Assembly: GCA_019417795.1 (NCBI GenBank)
Contig: DXUR01000188.1
Coordinates: 1-5,936, forward strand
DNA length: 5,936 bases
Reading direction: 5' to 3'
Source of the DNA: Clostridiales bacterium
GTDB lineage: Bacteria > Bacillota_A > Clostridia > Oscillospirales > Oscillospiraceae
This document shows positions 345-5,936 of this stretch, one piece after another. The notes beneath the pieces are model-generated. The model saw only the letters and a program-made list of their open reading frames with translations, had not been told where the DNA came from and did not search any database. Position numbers and translations under genes: made by a program. Numbering within the stretch: position 1 is the first letter of the stretch; each line of letters starts with the position of its first letter.

Positions 345-629
345 GATACGGTATTTGTTTCGGCGTTTTGCCTAATCAAGCCCTTAAAAAAATGGCAAAG
401 TGTTGGTTCGCCGTGCATTTGTGCCGGAGTTTGGGGCGCAAAACCCGGGTGTTTGTGATAGATTTGTGGCGAAGATGTGATAACCCGCTCCGCGCAGTCC
501 GGCAGGCCGGCGGCTCGGCTGTGACGGGCCTGCCCTCTCCGTCCCCTTTGGTGACACCTCTCCCAAAGAGAGAGGCTTTTGGCCTGCGGAAACGCTCCGC
601 GGTATGCCCTAACAAAAAGGGCAGTGTGC
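345..629. other. Gene-free intergenic region with palindromes
   Basis: I see no credible gene here: open frames lack ribosome binding sites and run across the repeats. The region separates the 1-236 lipoprotein promoter (firing leftward) from cassette 1. Its visible structure is the palindromic cluster at 501-576, a hairpin with arms at 584-590 and 596-602, and a 6-bp hairpin TGCCCT/AGGGCA (605-610/618-623) just before the cassette 1 promoter. None of these has a U-run, so they do not read as terminators. Confidence 0.6.
501..576. repeat. REP-like palindromic intergenic repeat
   Basis: Stacked inverted repeats: GGCAGGCC (501-508) pairs perfectly with GGCCTGCC (527-534), and CCTCTC (557-562) pairs with GAGAGG (570-575). 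Between them a GTCCCC-TTT-GGTGAC mini-hairpin (541-555) has one mismatch. From memory, the pattern of CCCTCTCC, a short inner hairpin, then ACCTCTCCCAAAG-GAGAGGC resembles dispersed intergenic repeats of Faecalibacterium-type genomes. This copy looks degenerate. Only one copy is in the window, so repeat status rests on recall. Confidence 0.45.
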
Positions 630-631
630 GC

Positions 632-660
632 TTGACAATCCGCGTGCTGACGTCTATAAT
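632..660 (+). promoter_or_regulatory. Antisense-RNA promoter, cassette 1
   Basis: TTGACA (632-637), 17-bp spacer, TATAAT (655-660): both hexamers match the sigma-A consensus exactly. It fires toward the 3' end of the convergent peptide gene, with an expected start near 667. Confidence 0.88.
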
Positions 661-666
661 AAAGAT

Positions 667-770
667 AAGGAAAGGCGCTGTCCGCACAGTGGTCAGCTTC
701 CCTCCTCGGATGTCACATTAGAAAATATGACCGCCGTGAGTTGGTAGCTTTGGGGCGGTCATTTTTCTTG
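667..770 (+). ncRNA. Candidate antitoxin RNA, cassette 1 (~100 nt)
   Basis: The predicted transcript runs from the consensus promoter (start near 667) to the U-rich tail after the 727-762 hairpin. It has no convincing coding potential. The 5' part can form a CGCTGT/ACAGTG hairpin, followed by a C/U-rich segment CCTCCT (701-706) able to pair with AGGAGG of the peptide's ribosome binding site. The 3' part is complementary to the end of the peptide mRNA through the terminator. The convergent arrangement is that of Fst RNA II or RatA. Ends are predicted, not measured. Confidence 0.65.
727..762. terminator. Bidirectional terminator, cassette 1
   Basis: ATGACCGCC (727-735) pairs perfectly with GGCGGTCAT (754-762), with an 18-nt loop. 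The plus strand continues with TTTTCTT. The minus strand continues with ATTTTC, a weaker tail. One hairpin can therefore end both the antisense RNA and the peptide mRNA. Confidence 0.75.
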
Positions 771-773
771 TCA

Positions 774-911
774 TTATTTTTTCGAATCGTGTTTTGCGCG
801 GTGCGAGTCACGAAAAATCGCTTGGGCAATCGTCCAAGTGATCTTGGCTGTGCCAATGATGACAGTGACCAAAAGGGTGAGCAGGGCGAGAACATTATTC
901 CAAATTTCCAT
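774..911 (-). CDS. 45-aa hydrophobic peptide, putative type I toxin (copy 1)
   Basis: The peptide starts MEIWNN, has one hydrophobic segment (about residues 7-28, with conserved Gly20 and Trp26), then a polar basic tail with FRD at 33-35, RAKHDSKK at the C-terminus. The size and layout fit a single membrane-spanning helix, as in type I toxins of the Fst, TxpA and BsrG kind. I do not recognise the exact family, and toxicity is inferred. The start is set by AAGGAGG (927-921), 9 nt before ATG. A longer in-frame opening to 1064 exists, but it would run through the leader hairpin. Identity to copies 2 and 3 is about 25/45, with no indels, so the reading frame has been kept during divergence. The gene is expressed from the 1068-1096 promoter and convergent to an antisense RNA. 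Confidence 0.75.
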   Translation of the reverse strand: MEIWNNVLALLTLLVTVIIGTAKITWTIAQAIFRDSHRAKHDSKK

Positions 912-950
912 AACGGAATACCTCCTTGAGTAACTCATGTATAAAAACAC

Positions 951-999
951 TCGTACCCTCGGAGGGCGACAAAAAATTGAACTTCCTCTAAGGGTACGA
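951..999 (-). promoter_or_regulatory. Long leader hairpin of peptide mRNA, cassette 1
   Basis: Arms 951-965 and 985-999 form 14 pairs out of 15 (one G-U, one C-A mismatch) around a 19-nt loop. The arm sequences differ from those of copies 2 and 3, yet pairing is kept. The sense-strand loop keeps the AAGTTCAATTTTTTGTC core shared by all copies. One arm carries CCTCC on the sense strand, which could also pair with the ribosome binding site at 927-921. Confidence 0.75.
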
Positions 1000-1067
1000 C
1001 ACATCGGTGACCCCAAGAAGGGAAGCATGACCGCTGCACTTGCAGAACAGCGTCTTTCCTGCAAATA

Positions 1068-1096
1068 AGGATACCATAAAAATCGACGGATTGCAA
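1068..1096 (-). promoter_or_regulatory. Peptide mRNA promoter, cassette 1
   Basis: On the minus strand, TTGCAA (1096-1091) and TATCCT (1073-1068) have a 17-bp spacer. The expected start is near 1061, giving a ~150-nt leader. Position and sequence are the same in copy 2. Confidence 0.7.
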
Positions 1097-1109
1097 TGCC
1101 TTCCGGTGC

Positions 1110-1138
1110 TTGACAATCCGCGTGCTGACGTCTATAAT
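1110..1138 (+). promoter_or_regulatory. Antisense-RNA promoter, cassette 2
   Basis: TTGACA (1110-1115) and TATAAT (1133-1138) with a 17-bp spacer, identical in design to copy 1. The -35 lies 13 bp past the end of the copy 1 peptide -35, so the two promoters are back to back and divergent. Confidence 0.88.
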
Positions 1139-1144
1139 AAAGAT

Positions 1145-1248
1145 AAGGAAAGGCGCTGTCCGCACAGTGGTCAGCTTCCCTCCTTGAGTGTCACATTAGA
1201 AAACATGACCGCCGAAGTTTGGGATGCTTGGGGCGGTCATTTTTCTTG
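1145..1248 (+). ncRNA. Candidate antitoxin RNA, cassette 2 (~100 nt)
   Basis: Predicted from promoter 1110-1138 to the U-tail after the 1205-1240 hairpin. Its 1179-1196 segment (CCTCCTT, then GA, GT, TC, CAT) is an imperfect direct repeat of 1400-1418, the complement of its own peptide's RBS region. It matches the copy 1 RBS complement better (11 contiguous bases, 921-931). The 3' end overlaps the peptide mRNA at the shared terminator. Ends are predicted. Confidence 0.66.
1205..1240. terminator. Bidirectional terminator, cassette 2
   Basis: ATGACCGCC (1205-1213) pairs with GGCGGTCAT (1232-1240), with an 18-nt loop. The plus-strand tail is TTTTCTTG and the minus-strand tail is GTTTTC. The stem is identical in all three cassettes, while the loop differs. 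Confidence 0.77.
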
Positions 1249-1253
1249 TCATT

Positions 1254-1391
1254 TTATTTTTTCGAATAGTGTTTTGCCCGAGGTTTGTCCCGAAAGACGT
1301 CCCTCGAAATCATCCACGTCACATTGATGACGCCGATGACGACTGTAGCCAAAAGGTTCAGTGCGGAAAAAACAATATTTAAAATTTCCAT
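1254..1391 (-). CDS. 45-aa hydrophobic peptide, putative type I toxin (copy 2)
   Basis: This short gene is easily missed. The protein begins MEILNIVFSALNLL and ends RAKHYSKK, 45 residues, with one predicted membrane helix (about residues 5-28) and a charged, mostly basic tail from residue 30. It differs from copy 3 only at residue 2 (Glu/Asp) and 42 (Tyr/Asp). The two genes differ at about 8 nt and five of the seven changed codons are silent, which points to selection on the protein. The RBS AAGGAGG (1406-1400) is 8 nt before ATG. The mRNA is predicted to start near 1540 and end at the 1205-1240 hairpin, where it meets the convergent RNA. Membrane toxicity is inferred from architecture. A non-toxic membrane peptide or secreted peptide remains possible. 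Confidence 0.78.
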   Translation of the reverse strand: MEILNIVFSALNLLATVVIGVINVTWMISRDVFRDKPRAKHYSKK

Positions 1392-1434
1392 GATGGAATC
1401 CTCCTTCAAGTATCTCATGTAAAAACAATCGAAC

Positions 1435-1473
1435 CGTCAGGAGGATGACAAAAAATTGGACTTCCTCCTGACG
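1435..1473 (-). promoter_or_regulatory. Long leader hairpin of peptide mRNA, cassette 2
   Basis: CGTCAGGAGGA (1435-1445) pairs perfectly with TCCTCCTGACG (1463-1473), 11 bp, with a 17-nt loop. The stem buries both an SD-like AGGAGGA and an anti-SD TCCTCCT, so the anti-SD arm could swap between this stem and the true RBS at 1406-1400. Confidence 0.78.
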
Positions 1474-1546
1474 ATGACACGAACAATGACACCGAGGAGG
1501 GAAGCATGACCGCTGCACTTGCAGAACAGCGCCTTTCCTACCGATA

Positions 1547-1575
1547 AGGATACCATAAAAATCGACGGATTGCAA
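1547..1575 (-). promoter_or_regulatory. Peptide mRNA promoter, cassette 2
   Basis: On the minus strand, TTGCAA (1575-1570), 17-bp spacer, TATCCT (1552-1547), with a start expected near 1540. The -35 shares bases with the stem of the 1574-1603 terminator. Confidence 0.7.
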
Positions 1576-1603
1576 CAGCTCCACCTTCCCGGGTGGAGCT
1601 GTT
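1574..1603 (+). terminator. Strong hairpin terminator at the cassette 2 edge
   Basis: AACAGCTCCACC (1574-1585) pairs perfectly with GGTGGAGCTGTT (1592-1603), 12 bp with a 6-nt loop. The plus-strand tail is CTTTCTTTCT; the minus-strand side has no U-run. No plus-strand gene precedes it, so it would stop read-through of the cassette antisense RNAs before the 1695-1723 promoter, or it is left over from an earlier arrangement. Confidence 0.65.
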
Positions 1604-1694
1604 CTTTCTTTCTCCCGGAATTGTTCAATTTGCCGGTTTCCGGCATTTCGAATTGGGCATCCATCCAGACTTTTTTCGATTTTACGTCAGAATG

Positions 1695-1723
1695 TTGACA
1701 TCTTCCCGTCATCGTCTTATCAT
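1695..1723 (+). promoter_or_regulatory. Promoter of the 1919-2494 lipoprotein
   Basis: TTGACA (1695-1700), 17-bp spacer, TATCAT (1718-1723). The expected start near 1730 gives a long leader of ~190 nt. A weaker pair nearer the gene (TTGCAC 1859-1864, GATAAA 1881-1886, 16-bp spacer) could give a short leader instead. From 1604 to the gene I see only this promoter, the following leader and a small GCCGG/CCGGC hairpin (1632-1644). Confidence 0.6.
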
Positions 1724-1791
1724 TGTGTTGTAGAAGCCGTAAGTGTTTTAAAGCGCTGTTCGCCGTCTGTTTCAACGGTTTTCGAATCATA

Positions 1792-1848
1792 GCAATTCAA
1801 CTTTTTAATGCAACAGCAACAGCGTTGAATTGCATATCGCAAATATGC
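1792..1848 (+). promoter_or_regulatory. Leader with mutually exclusive hairpins
   Basis: GCAATTCAAC (1792-1801) pairs perfectly with GTTGAATTGC (1824-1833). GCATAT (1832-1837) pairs perfectly with ATATGC (1843-1848), followed by TGTTTT. The two stems share bases 1832-1833. A third option is ATGCAA (1808-1813) with TTGCAT (1830-1835). This could be an attenuator or a protein-binding leader. It matches no riboswitch class I know, and the second stem is weak (6 bp, AT-rich). Confidence 0.4.
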
Positions 1849-1918
1849 TGTTTTCATGTTGCACTAATTTCTTGCCTTGCGATAAACAGTCGGACTGCGC
1901 AGACGGGAGGGTTCTGCC

Positions 1919-2494
1919 ATGACACGATGCACAAACCGCCGCACTGCCATCCTTACGCTCATTCTGGGCCTTACACTCCTGCTTTGCGGCTGTCAGATCG
2001 GCGGCGGGGTATTCGTCCTGCCGGACATTTCCACAAAAGACAGCACGCAGGGCAAAACTCAGCTTCTCGCCGCCCTGAATAAACATTATTACACCCACTT
2101 TGACAACAGCGATTCCAGCCACTTTATCTATGGCAATGACTCCGCCGCCGAGGCTGTCCTTGCCTATCTTCAAAAAGTTTGCGCCGACGACGCCAGCAAG
2201 GTGGCCTCGCTCCTCTCCGACAGTACGGGTGATACCAGCCCGGTGCATTGTGCCGACAGCTTGCTGGCCAGCTATCCTTCCCTATCCGCAAGGCCATGCA
2301 AGGTCAGCTACGCCGCGCTGGACTCCGACTTATCGGATGATGCCCTTCTCTCATCCGCTGCCCAGACGCTACTCAAAAATCGGAGATTCCTCGTCCTGCC
2401 TGATATTTCTTCCAATATCGATTGCTGTCAGGTCAGTTTTGCCGTCGGCACCATCGGCGGACAGACCTTCGTGATCGCCGTCTTTACCTCCTGA
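1919..2494 (+). CDS. Lipoprotein of unknown function, 191 aa
   Basis: GGAGG (1906-1910) is 8 nt before the ATG. The N-terminus is basic (residues 3-8) with a hydrophobic core (10-22) and LCGC as lipobox, lipidated at Cys25. Cysteine at position -2 is unusual but compatible with the motif. The mature domain (about 26-191) is Ser/Asp/Ala-rich, has several cysteines including an adjacent pair at 169-170, and ends in a hydrophobic strand-like stretch. The hexapeptide VLPDIS occurs twice, at 33-38 and 159-164. I recognise no domain; the C-terminal VSFAVGTIGGQTFVIAVF faintly recalls the last strands of CAP/SCP proteins, but the catalytic residues are not evident. The product should be anchored on the outer face of the membrane. 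It is monocistronic, with a promoter and structured leader upstream and a terminator 10 bp downstream. Confidence 0.82.
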   Translation: MTRCTNRRTAILTLILGLTLLLCGCQIGGGVFVLPDISTKDSTQGKTQLLAALNKHYYTHFDNSDSSHFIYGNDSAAEAVLAYLQKVCADDASKVASLLSDSTGDTSPVHCADSLLASYPSLSARPCKVSYAALDSDLSDDALLSSAAQTLLKNRRFLVLPDISSNIDCCQVSFAVGTIGGQTFVIAVFTS

Positions 2495-2496
2495 TA

Positions 2497-2570
2497 AAAA
2501 CAAAAAGCCAGCCGCAGTTTTCCGTTCTGCGGCTGGCTTCATCTTTTACTTGCTCAAGCGGGCATTTTCT
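2497..2570 (-). ncRNA. Candidate ~75-nt small RNA convergent to the lipoprotein
   Basis: A consensus minus-strand promoter (2577-2604) predicts a start near 2570, and the 2505-2539 hairpin with its strong minus-strand U-tail predicts an end near 2497. No useful reading frame fits; the only ATG opens MPA then stop. It overlaps the 3' end of the lipoprotein mRNA only across the terminator. It could be a regulatory RNA or a decayed relative of the cassette antisense RNAs. Predicted from sequence only. Confidence 0.45.
2505..2539. terminator. Bidirectional terminator after the lipoprotein
   Basis: AAGCCAGCCGCAG (2505-2517) pairs perfectly with CTGCGGCTGGCTT (2527-2539), 13 bp with a 9-nt loop. 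The plus-strand tail is CATCTTTTA. The minus-strand tail is TTTGTTTTT, the better U-run, so the site also suits a leftward transcript. Confidence 0.85.
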
Positions 2571-2576
2571 CCGGCT

Positions 2577-2604
2577 ATTATAAAATGTCATCTCCGTTTG
2601 TCAA
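2577..2604 (-). promoter_or_regulatory. Consensus promoter of the candidate small RNA
   Basis: On the minus strand, TTGACA (2604-2599), 16-bp spacer, TATAAT (2582-2577). Both hexamers are perfect. The spacer shares a TGAC with the cassette antisense promoters. The -35 lies 12 bp from the cassette 3 peptide -35, pointing the other way. Confidence 0.6.
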
Positions 2605-2616
2605 TAGGGAAAGAGA

Positions 2617-2645
2617 TTGCTTTCTGTCCAATTTTATGGTATCCT
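2617..2645 (+). promoter_or_regulatory. Peptide mRNA promoter, cassette 3
   Basis: TTGCTT (2617-2622), 17-bp spacer, TATCCT (2640-2645), with an expected start near 2652 and a ~145-nt leader. The -35 is weaker than TTGCAA in copies 1 and 2. Confidence 0.62.
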
Positions 2646-2716
2646 TATCGGTAAGAAAGGCGCTGTTCTGCAAGTGCAGCGGTCATGCTTCCCTCCTTCG
2701 TATCACATTGTGCCGC

Positions 2717-2753
2717 GTCAGGAGGAAGTTCAATTTTTTGTCATCCTCCTGAT
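2717..2753 (+). promoter_or_regulatory. Long leader hairpin of peptide mRNA, cassette 3
   Basis: GTCAGGAGGA (2717-2726) pairs with TCCTCCTGAT (2744-2753): 9 Watson-Crick pairs plus one G-U, with a 17-nt loop. TCCTCCT (2744-2750) could instead pair with AGGAGGA of the RBS (2783-2789). A second anti-SD, CCTCCTTC (2692-2699), can pair over 8 bp with GAAGGAGG (2781-2788). Confidence 0.77.
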
Positions 2754-2796
2754 GGTTCGAATGTTACACATCCGCTACTTGAAGGAGGAGTCCATT

Positions 2797-2934
2797 ATGG
2801 ATATTCTGAATATTGTTTTTTCCGCACTGAACCTTTTGGCTACAGTCGTCATCGGTGTCATCAATGTGACATGGATGATTTCGAGGGACGTCTTTCGGGA
2901 CAAGCCTCGGGCAAAACACGATTCAAAAAAATAA
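2797..2934 (+). CDS. 45-aa hydrophobic peptide, putative type I toxin (copy 3)
   Basis: The protein begins MDILNIVFSALNLL, has one predicted membrane helix (about 5-28, with Gly20, Asn23 and Trp26) and ends RAKHDSKK. The start is fixed by GGAGG (2784-2788), 8 nt upstream. A frame open upstream to 2617 is rejected because it would begin inside the promoter and run through the leader hairpin. It is 43/45 identical to copy 2. The mRNA is predicted from about 2652 to 2990 (~340 nt), convergent to a minus-strand RNA that starts 3' of the gene. This layout is known from Fst/par and TxpA/RatA type I systems, where a short membrane peptide is silenced by an antisense RNA. The family itself is unknown to me, so the toxin role is inferred. 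Confidence 0.8.
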   Translation: MDILNIVFSALNLLATVVIGVINVTWMISRDVFRDKPRAKHDSKK

Positions 2935-2939
2935 AATGG

Positions 2940-3046
2940 CAAGAAAAATGACCGCCCATAGCTCCTACACTCTGGCGGTCATATTTTCTCGTAAAATGTG
3001 TTGCTGAAGGAGGAAGCTGACCACTGTATGGGCAGCGCCTTTCTTT
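2940..3046 (-). ncRNA. Candidate antitoxin RNA, cassette 3 (~105 nt)
   Basis: Predicted from the minus-strand promoter at 3053-3081 to the U-tail after the 2948-2982 hairpin. Its C/U-rich segment is the complement of TGAAGGAGGA (3005-3014), which is identical to TGAAGGAGGA of the peptide RBS (2780-2789). The RNA can therefore form 10 perfect pairs with the RBS in addition to the overlap at the terminator. Ends are predicted. Confidence 0.68.
2948..2982. terminator. Bidirectional terminator, cassette 3
   Basis: ATGACCGCC (2948-2956) pairs with GGCGGTCAT (2974-2982), with a 17-nt loop. The plus tail (peptide mRNA) is ATTTTCTC and the minus tail (antisense RNA) is TTTTCTTG. It may also end the exchanger transcript, which comes from the right on the minus strand. 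Confidence 0.77.
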
Positions 3047-3052
3047 ATCTTT

Positions 3053-3081
3053 ATTATAGACGTCAGCACGCAGATTGTCAA
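3053..3081 (-). promoter_or_regulatory. Antisense-RNA promoter, cassette 3
   Basis: On the minus strand, TTGACA (3081-3076), 17-bp spacer, TATAAT (3058-3053), identical hexamers to copies 1 and 2. It begins 3 bp after the exchanger stop codon (3087-3085) on the same strand. Confidence 0.88.
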
Positions 3082-3084
3082 GCC

Positions 3085-4041
3085 TCACAGCGTGAACTGC
3101 ACCGCGCAGAACGCGGCATAGATGCAGAGCAGCGCCACGCCCTGCACGCGGGAGAGTCTGCCGCGCACCAGCGCCGGGATGGTCAGCAGGATCATCACCA
3201 GCAGCATCACGGGCAGTTCGAGCACGAGGCTCGAGTTGATGCCGAACAGAGTCGCGCTCTGCGGAATATCAAACGGTGCCAGCGCCACCGACACGCCGCT
3301 GACCAGCACGAGATTGAAGACGTTCGCGCCCACGATGTTGCCCAGCGAGAGGTCGCTGTGGCCCTTCATCAGCGAGGTGATGGCCGTGACCAGCTCGGGC
3401 AGCGAAGTGCCCAGCGCCACGAAGGTGAGTGCGATGACGGATTCGGGCACGCCCAGCGCCTGTGCAATGATGGTGCCGTTGTCCACCAGCAGGTTCGCAC
3501 CCAGCGCGATGAGGGTCGCGCCCACCACCAGCCGCAGAACGATCCGCCCAAGGCTCATCAGCTCTTCTTCGTGCTCCGGCTCTGCCGGGGCATTTTTCAT
3601 CTGCCAGACATTCGCCACCATATAGGCTGCGAACATTGCCAGCATCAGCAGACCCAAAGGCCGGGTGAAGCGGCCCATCCCGTAAGCGGCGAAGCAGTAG
3701 ACGGCCGCCGCCGCGAAGAAAAAGGCCACTGGCACCCGCAGGGTCTTGGGGTCCACCTTGGCGGGCCGCACGGCCACCGTGATGGCCGCGATGAGGGCCG
3801 CATTGCAGATGACCGAGCCGATGGCGTTGCCGTAGGCGATCTCGCCATGGCCGGACACGGCTGAGATGGTGGACACCATCACCTCAGGCAGGGTGGTGCC
3901 GATGGACACCACCGTTGCGCCGATGAGCAGCTCCGGCAGGTGGAACCGGCGGGCCAGCGCCGATGCGCCGTCCACGAACCAGTCGCCGCCCTTGATGAGG
4001 CAGAGCAGACCCAGAACGAACAGAATGCCGGGGATTATCAT
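3085..4041 (-). CDS. Calcium/sodium antiporter, CaCA family (YrbG-like), 318 aa
   Basis: An integral membrane exchanger, expected to move Ca2+ (or another divalent cation) against Na+ or H+. Both alpha repeats are present: GTTLPE (48-53) with GNAIGSVICN (71-80), and GTSLPE (211-216) with GNIVGANVFN (234-243). Glu53/Asn80 and Glu216/Asn243 stand at the positions that bind ions in the family, each pair 27 residues apart. About ten hydrophobic helices flank an acidic cytoplasmic loop (PAEPEHEEE, 152-160). Length is typical of prokaryotic members. The start at 4041 is chosen for GGAGG (4052-4048), 6 nt upstream; an in-frame ATG at 4083 has no such site and would add 14 polar residues before the first helix. 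It is transcribed alone from 4127-4155. Cation choice cannot be read from the sequence. Confidence 0.93.
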   Translation of the reverse strand: MIIPGILFVLGLLCLIKGGDWFVDGASALARRFHLPELLIGATVVSIGTTLPEVMVSTISAVSGHGEIAYGNAIGSVICNAALIAAITVAVRPAKVDPKTLRVPVAFFFAAAAVYCFAAYGMGRFTRPLGLLMLAMFAAYMVANVWQMKNAPAEPEHEEELMSLGRIVLRLVVGATLIALGANLLVDNGTIIAQALGVPESVIALTFVALGTSLPELVTAITSLMKGHSDLSLGNIVGANVFNLVLVSGVSVALAPFDIPQSATLFGINSSLVLELPVMLLVMILLTIPALVRGRLSRVQGVALLCIYAAFCAVQFTL

Positions 4042-4095
4042 AGTACTCCTCCAAAACCGGGCGCAGCGTGCGCCGTATCCCATAACGCATATTCA

Positions 4096-4118
4096 ACGGC
4101 CCGCACTTTCCGGGCCGT
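4096..4118 (-). promoter_or_regulatory. 5'-terminal hairpin of the exchanger mRNA
   Basis: ACGGCCCG (4096-4103) pairs perfectly with CGGGCCGT (4111-4118), 8 GC-rich pairs with a 7-nt loop. With transcription expected to start near 4120, the stem lies at the extreme 5' end, which would suit a stabilising cap. No U-run follows, so it is not a terminator. Confidence 0.5.
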
Positions 4119-4126
4119 ATCTTTAT

Positions 4127-4155
4127 ATGATACCAGATTTACCCCCGGAATACAA
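4127..4155 (-). promoter_or_regulatory. Promoter of the exchanger gene
   Basis: On the minus strand, TTGTAT (4155-4150), 17-bp spacer, TATCAT (4132-4127), with a start expected near 4120 and a ~79-nt leader. It lies downstream of the ABC operon terminator, so the exchanger is a separate unit. Confidence 0.65.
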
Positions 4156-4209
4156 CGTCCCACCACGAAACATTTTGCAGCGCTATTATATATAAGGTAG
4201 CCGGAGCGC

Positions 4210-4234
4210 AAAAAAGCTCCCCCGGAGGGGAGCT
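4210..4234 (-). terminator. Intrinsic terminator of the ABC transporter operon
   Basis: On the minus strand, AGCTCCCC (4234-4227), TCCG loop, GGGGAGCT (4222-4215), then TTTTT (4214-4210). It starts 8 bp after the stop codon of the OppF-like gene. Confidence 0.92.
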
Positions 4235-4242
4235 GAACGGTC

Positions 4243-5175
4243 TTATTTGCACCATTTGGCAAATTCTTCATCCGTACACTTGACGTAATGGCTGCCCTCC
4301 ACATGGTGGCTGGTGCCCTTGGAATAGTCGATGCCGGAGGTGGCGTAGTCGTAGGTCTCGGCCACCCGGCGCTTCTCCACCACCGGGTTCGGCAGCGGGA
4401 TGGCCGACAGCAGGCTGCGGGTATAGGGGTGGATGGGATTTGCAAAGATCTCCTCCGTTGTGCCCGTTTCCAGCAGGTGGCCCAGATGGAGCACGCCGAT
4501 GCGGTCGGAGATGTACTTGACCATCGACAGGTCGTGGGCGATGAACAGATAGGCCGTGCCCGTCTCCTGCTGGATGTCCTTCATCAGGTTGACGACCTGC
4601 GCCTGAATCGACACGTCCAGCGCCGAGATGCACTCGTCGGCGATGATGAGCTTCGGGTTCATGATGAGGGCGCGGGCGATGCCGACGCGCTGACGCTGGC
4701 CGCCGGAGAACTGGTGGGGGTAGCGCTCGGCGTGTTCCGGTGCAAGGCCCACCTTCGCCAGAATCTTCTCCACCTTCTCGCGGCGCTCGGCCTGCGTCTT
4801 GTACATATGGTGGATGTCCAGACCCTCGCCGATGATGTCCTCCACCTTCTTGCGGGGGTTCAGGGATGCCATCGGGTCCTGGAAGATCATCTGCATCTGG
4901 GTGCGCAGGGTGTTGTTCTGGGCGTGGCTCAGATGGCCGCTGATGTCCTGCCCGTCGAATGTGATCCTGCCTGCGGTGGGGTCATACAGCCGGATGATGC
5001 TGCGGCCGATGGTGGATTTGCCCGAGCCGGACTCACCCACCAAACCATAGGTCTCGCCGGGATAGATCTCAAAGCTGACATCGTCCACGGCCTTGACCGT
5101 GAAGTTTTTGTTCACCTTGAAATACTGCTTCAGCCCCTCGACCTTCAGCAGAGGGGTAGCGCTTTGTGCTGCCAT
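4243..5175 (-). CDS. Oligopeptide/dipeptide ABC transporter ATPase, OppF/DppF-like, 310 aa
   Basis: One of the paired cytoplasmic ATPases that power peptide import through the Opp/Dpp/Nik permease family. All nucleotide-binding motifs are present: Walker A GESGSGKST (47-55), Q-loop Gln99 in FQDPMASLNP, signature SGGQRQR (157-163), Walker B LIIADE (176-181) with catalytic Glu181, D-loop SALD (184-187), and switch His214. The usual Pro after DE in this subfamily is Cys182. The C-terminal part after PYTRSLLSAIP is the short oligopeptide-transporter extension; it ends in a GSHYVKC-type segment and lacks the usual cysteine cluster. The ATG abuts the stop of the upstream ATPase (TAAATG), and GGAGG (5188-5184) lies inside that gene, 8 nt away, which suggests coupled translation. 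Last gene of the operon. Substrate is not decidable here. Confidence 0.93.
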   Translation of the reverse strand: MAAQSATPLLKVEGLKQYFKVNKNFTVKAVDDVSFEIYPGETYGLVGESGSGKSTIGRSIIRLYDPTAGRITFDGQDISGHLSHAQNNTLRTQMQMIFQDPMASLNPRKKVEDIIGEGLDIHHMYKTQAERREKVEKILAKVGLAPEHAERYPHQFSGGQRQRVGIARALIMNPKLIIADECISALDVSIQAQVVNLMKDIQQETGTAYLFIAHDLSMVKYISDRIGVLHLGHLLETGTTEEIFANPIHPYTRSLLSAIPLPNPVVEKRRVAETYDYATSGIDYSKGTSHHVEGSHYVKCTDEEFAKWCK

Positions 5176-5936
5176 TTACTCCGCCTCCTCGATCTTTTTT
5201 GCTTCTGCGCGCATCCGGGCCACACGTTCCTTCAGCTCCGGCGGCATCTCCACCTTGGGGGCACGGGGGTCCAGCAGCCAAGTCGCTGCAAAGTGGGTGT
5301 CGCTGATCTTGAACATGGGCGGGTCGATCTCGTCGTCGATCTTCAGCGCGTACTTGTTGCGGGGTGCAAAGGCGTCGCCGGCCTTTTCGTGCAGCAGGTT
5401 CGGCGGCGAGCCGGGGATGGTGTAGAGCCGCTCGTCAGCCGTGTCAAGGTCGGGCATGGCCGACAGCAGGCCCCATGTGTAGGGGTGGCGGGGGTCGTAG
5501 AAGATCTCATCAATGGTGCCGGTCTCGACGATCTTGCCCGCATACATGACATCGACATAGTCGGCCACCTTTGCCACGACGCCGAGGTCGTGGGTGATGT
5601 AGATGACCGAGATGCCGCGCTCCTTCTGGATGCTGCGGATCAGCTCCAAAATCTTCGCCTGAATGGTCACATCCAGTGCGGTGGTCGGCTCGTCGCAGAT
5701 GAGCAGGTCGGGGTCGCAGGACAGCGCGATGGCGATGACCACGCGCTGCCGCATCCCGCCGGACAACTGGTGGGGGTAGCTCTTCATCCGCTTTTCGGCG
5801 TCGGTGATGCCCACCTCTTCCAGCAGCTCGAGGGCCTTCTTATAGGCCTCGGCCTTGGGCATCTTGAAGTGCCAGAGCATCCCCTCCATGATCTGCTTGC
5901 CGATGGTCATGGTGGGGTCAAGGCTGGTCATGGGGT
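5176..5936 (-). CDS. Oligopeptide/dipeptide ABC transporter ATPase, OppD/DppD-like (5' part missing)
   Basis: The last ~252 codons are visible and the frame stays open across the window edge, so the true start and the Walker A motif lie outside. The edge falls just after the Q-loop, since the first residues read PMTSLDP. With the Met at 5931 as residue 1: signature LSGGMRQR (56-63), Walker B LLICDE (76-81), D-loop TALD (84-87), switch His114 in THD. The C-terminal peptide-transporter domain starts near IPGSPPNLL (172). There, the four cysteines that usually hold a 4Fe-4S cluster in DppD-type proteins are replaced by Asp186, Asn192, Asp199 and Thr217. A charged helix rich in Glu, Lys and Arg ends the protein. 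It forms the heterodimer partner of the abutting OppF-like ATPase. Confidence 0.92.

Follow-up and report, generated by a model that had tools for sequence, protein, structure and literature searches.

Layout of the three units

The DNA analysed here (5,936 nucleotides, positions 1 to 5,936 of contig DXUR01000188.1, GenBank assembly GCA_019417795.1, from a gut bacterium of the family Oscillospiraceae; hereafter the window) contains three related units of about 467 bp, at 630–1096, 1108–1575 and 2617–3083. Each is probably a type I toxin–antitoxin cassette, judging by its sequence, with a gene for a 45-amino-acid (aa) hydrophobic peptide and a putative gene for an antisense RNA running towards it. 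The peptide strand is minus, minus and plus, respectively, copies 1 and 2 forming a tandem pair. All three units have the same order of parts: a weak peptide promoter, a leader of about 145–150 nucleotides (nt), the Shine–Dalgarno (SD) sequence AAGGAGG, the 45-aa open reading frame (ORF), a terminator hairpin around the 3' side of the ORF, and an opposing promoter TTGACA-17-TATAAT that faces the hairpin. The mean column identity in a three-way alignment is 87%, and units in relatives also keep this order. The first-pass annotation of this DNA had described three units of this size with a common order of parts, and the coordinates, ORFs, promoters and alignment identity all agree with it. Two points of that description need correcting: the peptides of copies 2 and 3 are 96% identical while that of copy 1 has diverged (56% aa identity to copy 2), and towards the toxin gene's own direction of transcription the terminator has a weak tail, reading ATATTTTCT or GTTTTCT. 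Despite the diverged peptide, copies 1 and 2 share 91–92% identity at both ends. Within each unit, one end is an imperfect inverted repeat of the other.

The opposing (antisense) promoters of all three units match the consensus at 12 of 12 positions. A scan of positions 560–3150 detected nine promoter sites scoring at least 9/12, compared to a mean of 2.7 in shuffled sequences. The peptide promoters are weaker than the antisense promoters and reach at least 9/12 in 43% of 68 cassettes (selected as described below) compared to 5% of controls; in some units, among them copy 3, the −35/−10 scorer puts this promoter at the wrong site. The features are listed in Table 1.

Table 1. Features of the three units. 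R1 is the covariance model of the antisense RNA; z values are relative to shuffled leaders.
Feature	Position	Strand	Basis
Copy 1 antisense-RNA promoter TTGACA-17-TATAAT	632..660	+	consensus 12/12
Copy 1 antisense RNA (putative antitoxin), from 5' hairpin module through linker to terminator	670..776	+	R1 match 84.5 bits; in model's seed
Copy 1 shared terminator hairpin (ATGACCGCC / GGCGGTCAT)	727..762	.	read from sequence; stem covaries in family
Copy 1 45-aa peptide, diverged type (MEIWNNVLALL...)	774..911	-	ORF; homologues
Copy 1 SD AAGGAGG	921..927	-	read from sequence; predicted paired 0.99
Copy 1 leader hairpin	952..999	-	predicted fold
Copy 1 shared 5' module in mRNA leader, oriented like the antisense RNA start	1013..1058	-	z 9.8
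Copy 1 peptide promoter TTGCAA-17-TATCCT, TATG before -10	1068..1096	-	sequence; promoter scoring
Copy 2 antisense-RNA promoter	1110..1138	+	consensus 12/12
Copy 2 antisense RNA (putative antitoxin)	1148..1254	+	R1 match 89.4 bits; in model's seed
Copy 2 shared terminator hairpin	1205..1240	.	sequence; covarying stem
Copy 2 45-aa peptide (MEILNIVFSALNLLATVV...)	1254..1391	-	ORF; homologues
Copy 2 SD AAGGAGG	1400..1406	-	predicted paired 0.93, partner in 5' module
Copy 2 leader hairpin	1435..1475	-	predicted fold
Copy 2 shared 5' module in mRNA leader	1488..1537	-	z 15.9
Copy 2 peptide promoter	1547..1575	-	sequence; promoter scoring
Copy 3 peptide promoter TTGCTT-17-TATCCT	2617..2645	+	read from sequence; promoter scorer chose another site
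Copy 3 shared 5' module in mRNA leader	2655..2699	+	z 7.8
Copy 3 leader hairpin	2716..2755	+	predicted fold
Copy 3 SD AAGGAGG	2782..2788	+	predicted paired 1.00, partner in 5' module
Copy 3 45-aa peptide	2797..2934	+	ORF; pN/pS 0.10 vs copy 2
Copy 3 shared terminator hairpin	2948..2982	.	sequence; covarying stem
Copy 3 antisense RNA (putative antitoxin)	2934..3043	-	R1 match 74.4 bits; in model's seed
Copy 3 antisense-RNA promoter	3053..3081	-	consensus 12/12

The 45-aa peptide

Codon changes in the peptide gene are mainly silent, with a ratio of nonsynonymous to synonymous change (pN/pS) of 0.23 summed over 24 non-overlapping cassette pairs, although copy 3 and locus L003 differ by one amino-acid change and zero silent changes. 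This pattern indicates that the peptide is under purifying selection. The copy 2 peptide is predicted to form a single helix over residues 2–34 (mean pLDDT, the predicted local distance difference test score, 84), and the peak 17-residue hydropathy of the window peptides is 2.2–2.5, as in the small hydrophobic peptides of type I toxin–antitoxin systems.

The peptide family was not recognised in the first-pass annotation, and it is unnamed in both Pfam and NCBIfam, where the window peptides matched no family above chance and no toxin model. A sequence search of the PDB with the copy 2 peptide found no solved-structure match, and PHROGs yielded weak matches only. Protein searches returned 142 relatives for the copy 2 peptide (the best 120 of 142 were inspected) and 27 for the copy 1 peptide, with no Pfam domain on the relatives among the matches listed. 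In the 31 genomes of the genus, a profile of the peptide gave eight places at an E-value of 1e-4 or better, of which two encode truncated peptides, and in a sample of 297 genomes of the family it fell below E 0.001 only in G001 and G016, both of which belong to the genus set. When genome contigs were searched by peptide alignment, one locus matched, that of F. longum (L001).

A widespread family of putative antisense RNAs

The putative antisense RNA, of about 105 nt, has relatives in many genomes. The covariance model R1 was built, with the promoter left out, from a seed of 34 units (three from the window) picked by promoter plus RNA start. It matches 26 of the 31 genus genomes at E 0.01 (21 at E 1e-6), 150 of the 297 genomes of the family at E 0.01 (62 of them reach 1e-6; filters stricter than in the genus search) and 44 of 291 genomes of the class at E 1e-4, all counts that include weak matches not inspected singly. 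Two of the matches (L131 and L132) are probably false because they have no promoter. The notion of a three-copy family was thus too narrow, as the distribution of the RNA covers the GTDB family and extends into the class. A DNA search with copy 2 matched 12 of the 31 genus genomes, many of the matches being limited to the antisense half of the unit. Some genomes have several copies of the RNA, including tandem arrays of four and five cassettes, spaced about 340–380 nt, in L140 and L167.

An antisense promoter of 11–12/12 is located upstream of 50 of the 65 RNA matches outside the seed, some of which are close relatives of seed units, compared to 18 of 2000 (0.9%) random pieces of the same loci. 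In 89 aligned matches, 97.1% of the pair cells are formed, compared to 90.2% in shuffled and 31–55% in slid alignments, where the first value leans towards structure because the alignment was fitted to that structure; in 11 of the 14 base pairs, both partners vary. Taken by itself, the 5' hairpin has a median z of −2.1 over 91 distinct RNAs. In Rfam, the window gave just two chance-level matches to small nucleolar RNAs at E 1 and none to RatA or another antitoxin model, and at E 0.1 no match fell on the cassettes in 12 relative loci. Promoter and covarying structure together mark a putative gene for an overlapping antisense RNA, complete with terminator. All eight of the peptide-first matches (those at E 1e-4 or better in the 31 genus genomes) adjoin the antisense RNA.

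For the tests on cassettes we collected 100 distinct RNAs, comprising model matches down to about 30 bits with same-locus repeats omitted. The 72 with a clear peptide by our score and at least 200 nt upstream were used for the module test, and 68 of these for the trans pairing, duplex, SD closure and peptide promoter tests.

One RNA, several peptides

Within Faecalibacterium, the RNA adjoins peptides such as MTFEQVVLLLTLLGGAIYITFQITWTVSHSDDKKKK and a 20-aa peptide, and in other genomes of the family it adjoins MVTYSDLIQTGILIVGIISLFIQANKKK-like peptides. In the IMG/VR contig L197, the RNA matches the model at 47.3 bits and the peptide clearly belongs to Hol_Tox (41.3 bits, where the cut-off is 23.3; E 1.4e-10). 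Among 30 sampled cassette peptides, six match Hol_Tox at E 0.05 or better and three weakly match PepG1, a type I toxin model. On this sequence evidence, the link between the cassettes is the shared RNA, and the window peptide is not a Hol_Tox.

Locus L115 contains at 1774–1875 (and L094 in the same place) a cassette with the 20-aa peptide MPITLTFHLFGFTFTIKVRK beside an oppositely oriented cassette. Separate small peptides ending in KAC or NAC are found opposite the same promoter-plus-module pattern in L178, L192, L201, L206, L220, L223 and other IMG/VR contigs; for contigs with such peptides the RNA match is weak, 21–29 bits in L176, L180, L192, L201, L220 and L223 (E 0.01), and several others are unmatched.

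Terminator loops appear to change faster than the remaining parts. In 40 related pairs the mean loop identity is 0.71, compared to 0.93 in the coding region, 0.89 in the leader and 0.88 in the 5' module of the RNA, and the loop is below the coding region in 37 of the 40. The automatic division into parts put the stem of copy 2, and perhaps of others, in the wrong place, the pairs are not independent, and pairs that look orthologous by position give a mixed picture (some loops are identical, that of L110/L117 has 0.71), so the divergence is suggestive only. In L140, the RNAs at 743 and 1122 score alike, and one of them had been removed because the sequences were the same, an observation that argues against strict divergence.

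The start of the antisense RNA is repeated in the mRNA leader

The first-pass annotation overlooked that the peptide mRNA and the antisense RNA start with nearly identical sequence of the same sense. In 64 of the 72 cassettes, the mRNA leader repeats the first 45 nt of the antisense RNA (z > 3 relative to shuffled leaders). The score of an RNA with its own leader is 36.6 compared to 20.8 with other leaders, and the median rank of the own leader is second among 72. When leaders of the same locus are compared, the own leader gives the RNA a higher score than the sibling mean in 13 of 19 cases, with five ties; the sole exception is copy 1, whose RNA fits the leader of copy 2 better, in agreement with recombination between copies 1 and 2.

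The module in the mRNA includes a C/U-rich stretch able to pair with the SD sequence. The predicted pairing of the SD is 0.89 in native and 0.77 in shuffled leaders, the native value being higher in 63 of the 68 cassettes, although these sequences are related and the p-value is consequently too small. A second stretch, in the middle of the leader, accounts for the larger share of the SD pairing in 26 of these cassettes; in all three window copies the partner is within the module, with a predicted pairing of about 0.93–1.00.

Duplication, decay and mobile DNA

The window DNA matches Faecalibacterium, including the F. longum locus L001. In the genus-set genome G003, locus L060 is 98.8% identical over window positions 2431–5936 and contains one unit where the window has copies 1 and 2, and beyond it two further cassettes with another peptide. 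The difference between one and two units amounts to a tandem event at a unit boundary. A run of 57 bases comprising the promoter and RNA start is identical between units with different peptides. From the differing unit numbers and the identical 57 bases, the units seem to duplicate and recombine as modules. Their ends do not appear to be fixed, since the F. longum unit match stops short of the peptide promoter, and a comparison of the F. longum flanks with window positions 4084–4242 revealed no target duplication (one site, by eye).

At least six of the 34 seed units (L006, L029, L072, L097, L100 and L105, by eye) have lost the toxin leader and start while the RNA and its promoter are kept, in a seed whose selection by RNA favours seeing loss on the toxin side. 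The antisense promoters of these units score 11–12/12. Five of them retain the last codons of the peptide, none being recognisable in L097, and L029 and L097 still have a peptide-type promoter motif. The last codons may be kept for the sake of the RNA, as they are partly beside or inside the RNA-complementary stretch. L006 and L029 are also two of the eight peptide-first matches. The orphan antisense RNAs of L100 and L105 adjoin the start of what is apparently the same neighbouring gene in two genomes, which we take to encode a tRNA-dihydrouridine synthase.

A plasmid search yielded no match and a phage search three unverified gut phage fragments. Viral contigs gave none by peptide and 56 stretches by the promoter-plus-module pattern.

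A further perfect promoter in the window, TTGACA-16-TATAAT at 2604–2577 on the minus strand, points to a hairpin at the 3' end of a convergent lipoprotein-like gene (1919–2494), and R1 matches 2491–2568 weakly (19.9 bits, E 0.015). The minus strand of 2491–2604 is possibly another antisense RNA or a decayed unit. Neither of the lipoprotein-like ORFs near the cassettes, 1919–2494 and 3–236, has a Pfam match.

Comparison with known systems

Convergent toxin mRNAs and antisense RNAs that overlap at their 3' ends are known from TxpA/RatA and BsrG/SR4, and Pfam has a family under the name Fst. Here, unlike in TxpA/RatA and BsrG/SR4, neither an Rfam antitoxin RNA nor an NCBIfam peptide model is matched. 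The first-pass annotation had likened the units to Fst/par. The pAD1 system (RNA I and RNA II), in the account of it given in PMC7472228, has convergent promoters, a shared bidirectional terminator, a leader that hides the SD and a small membrane peptide. The window units share this outline, with convergent promoters, a bidirectional terminator with complementary hairpins, a leader predicted to hide the SD and a small predicted membrane peptide. In par, however, the complementarity of the two RNAs near the start codon comes from direct repeats, DRa and DRb, whereas the repeated end module of the window units is inverted, so that both RNAs carry it in the same sense. In addition, the three window peptides have no Pfam Fst match and, by eye, no PxxxG motif, and the antisense RNA has about 105 nt compared to about 40 in par. 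By these tests the window units are not members of Fst/par: the promoters and terminator fit, the peptide and the repeats do not.

Hol_Tox (PF16935, a putative holin-like toxin) is similarly a small hydrophobic peptide ending in lysine, and cassette relatives exceed its 23.3-bit cut-off in L197 (41.3), L130 (24.9) and L152 (23.5), but the window peptides do not match it and PF16935 models the peptide only. In Clostridioides difficile, CD2517.1-RCd8 is described as a convergent overlapping pair of toxin and antisense RNA, with hydrophobic toxins of 50–53 aa, a long complementary region and an association of the class with CRISPR arrays (parts of PMC6563280). Compared by that description only, the window units also combine convergent overlapping genes with a small hydrophobic peptide; they overlap chiefly in the terminator. 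What is known, then, is the convergent arrangement of a toxin and an antisense RNA with a common terminator. What is new is the unnamed peptide family, an RNA family absent from Rfam, the same-sense module in the leader, and one RNA design with several peptides. Among the matches listed, the open-licence literature contained nothing recognisable as this system and, by title or start of abstract, no type I toxin–antitoxin in Faecalibacterium.

A possible mechanism and alternatives

Transcription from the weak promoter would give an mRNA of about 340 nt that encodes a membrane peptide with one helix. We propose that the fresh mRNA is poorly translated because its leader folds onto the SD, by pairing of the C/U-rich stretch in the first ~50 nt. 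The strong opposing promoter would produce the antisense RNA of about 105 nt, in which the 3' half is the complement of the mRNA 3' end by way of the terminator hairpin that both RNAs contain. Contact would begin at the terminator loops and lead to a double-stranded, degradable complex. The 5' half of the antisense RNA would be a near copy of the mRNA 5' module, anti-SD stretch included, and in copies 2 and 3 it could also clamp the ribosome site in trans. Once the antisense RNA runs down, opened mRNA would be translated and the peptide would harm the membrane. The type I toxin–antitoxin plan proposed for this gut Firmicute has gained support from the Faecalibacterium origin of the DNA, purifying selection, the covarying RNA, the strong antisense promoter, predicted SD closure, toxin-side decay and the Hol_Tox neighbour. 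Architecture, conservation, purifying selection, predicted SD closure and wide spread support it computationally; we infer transcription, toxicity, RNA–RNA contact and decay.

Some results weigh against this account. No toxin model matches the window peptides; in 28 of the 100 distinct RNAs the peptide is not clear by our scoring or the flank is too short; 12 of 63 viral or phage sites have no clear peptide; and the SD closure test rests on related sequences. Pairing in trans between the first 48 nt of the antisense RNA and the ribosome site has a median z of −0.7 over the 68 cassettes, although in the window it is −3.0 for copy 2 and −3.4 for copy 3 (0.0 for copy 1). It is not specific, as the cognate partner beats the mean non-cognate one in 62% by RNA and 54% by mRNA, and across the whole mRNA the best antisense duplex does not reach significance (median z −0.37). 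We therefore rejected the idea that the 5' half acts mainly by pairing in trans and kept such pairing as a possible second contact; because of its weakness, we assign the main contact to the terminator end, where the RNAs are complementary, as is described for par (PMC7472228).

The peptide could instead be a useful, not toxic, small membrane protein held low by the antisense RNA, for instance a stress-response peptide. Its conservation under purifying selection, the tolerance of many copies per genome and the lack of a toxin family match, with toxicity predicted only, would all suit such a role. We nevertheless consider it unlikely, as dissimilar hydrophobic peptides, one of them clearly a Hol_Tox, go with a single RNA chassis, and the loss of the peptide side from decayed seed units that retain the RNA fits a poison and antidote better. 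There is very little chance, in our estimate, that the units are miniature mobile elements whose matching ends are terminal inverted repeats, with the ORF and promoters as passengers. Imperfect inverted repeats at the ends, many dispersed and tandem copies and the 56 viral-contig stretches would be expected of such elements, but the matching ends lie downstream of the promoters and contain a covarying hairpin, the unit ends vary (the F. longum match stops before the peptide promoter), the window and a close relative differ (two units or one) by a tandem event at the border of a unit, and no target duplication was seen at the one F. longum site read by eye. Least probable of all is that the short RNA mainly regulates other mRNAs in trans through its anti-SD stretch, the peptide being secondary. 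The seed units with RNAs but no intact peptide gene (at least six of 34, promoter 11–12/12) and the generic anti-SD character of the CU-rich stretch point that way; the RNA adjoining all eight peptide-first matches, and its resemblance to its own leader far above most others, point the other way.

Taking the units as type I cassettes, we speculate, with more doubt than confidence, that a single antitoxin-RNA chassis is used across Clostridia with dissimilar toxins swapped in, and that the fast-changing terminator loop may be an address that prevents cross-talk among paralogues. As the antitoxin begins with a copy of the leader module, anti-SD switch included, and ends with the shared terminator, control would never touch the coding region, and dissimilar toxins could therefore be exchanged. 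Faecalibacterium is among the commonest human gut bacteria. With 150 of 297 family genomes matching and yet no family in Rfam, the copies are probably unannotated as RNAs. If the chassis reading is true, these cassettes would be a natural set where one RNA design controls several toxins, and would make it testable how many closely related RNA–toxin pairs in one cell avoid cross-talk.

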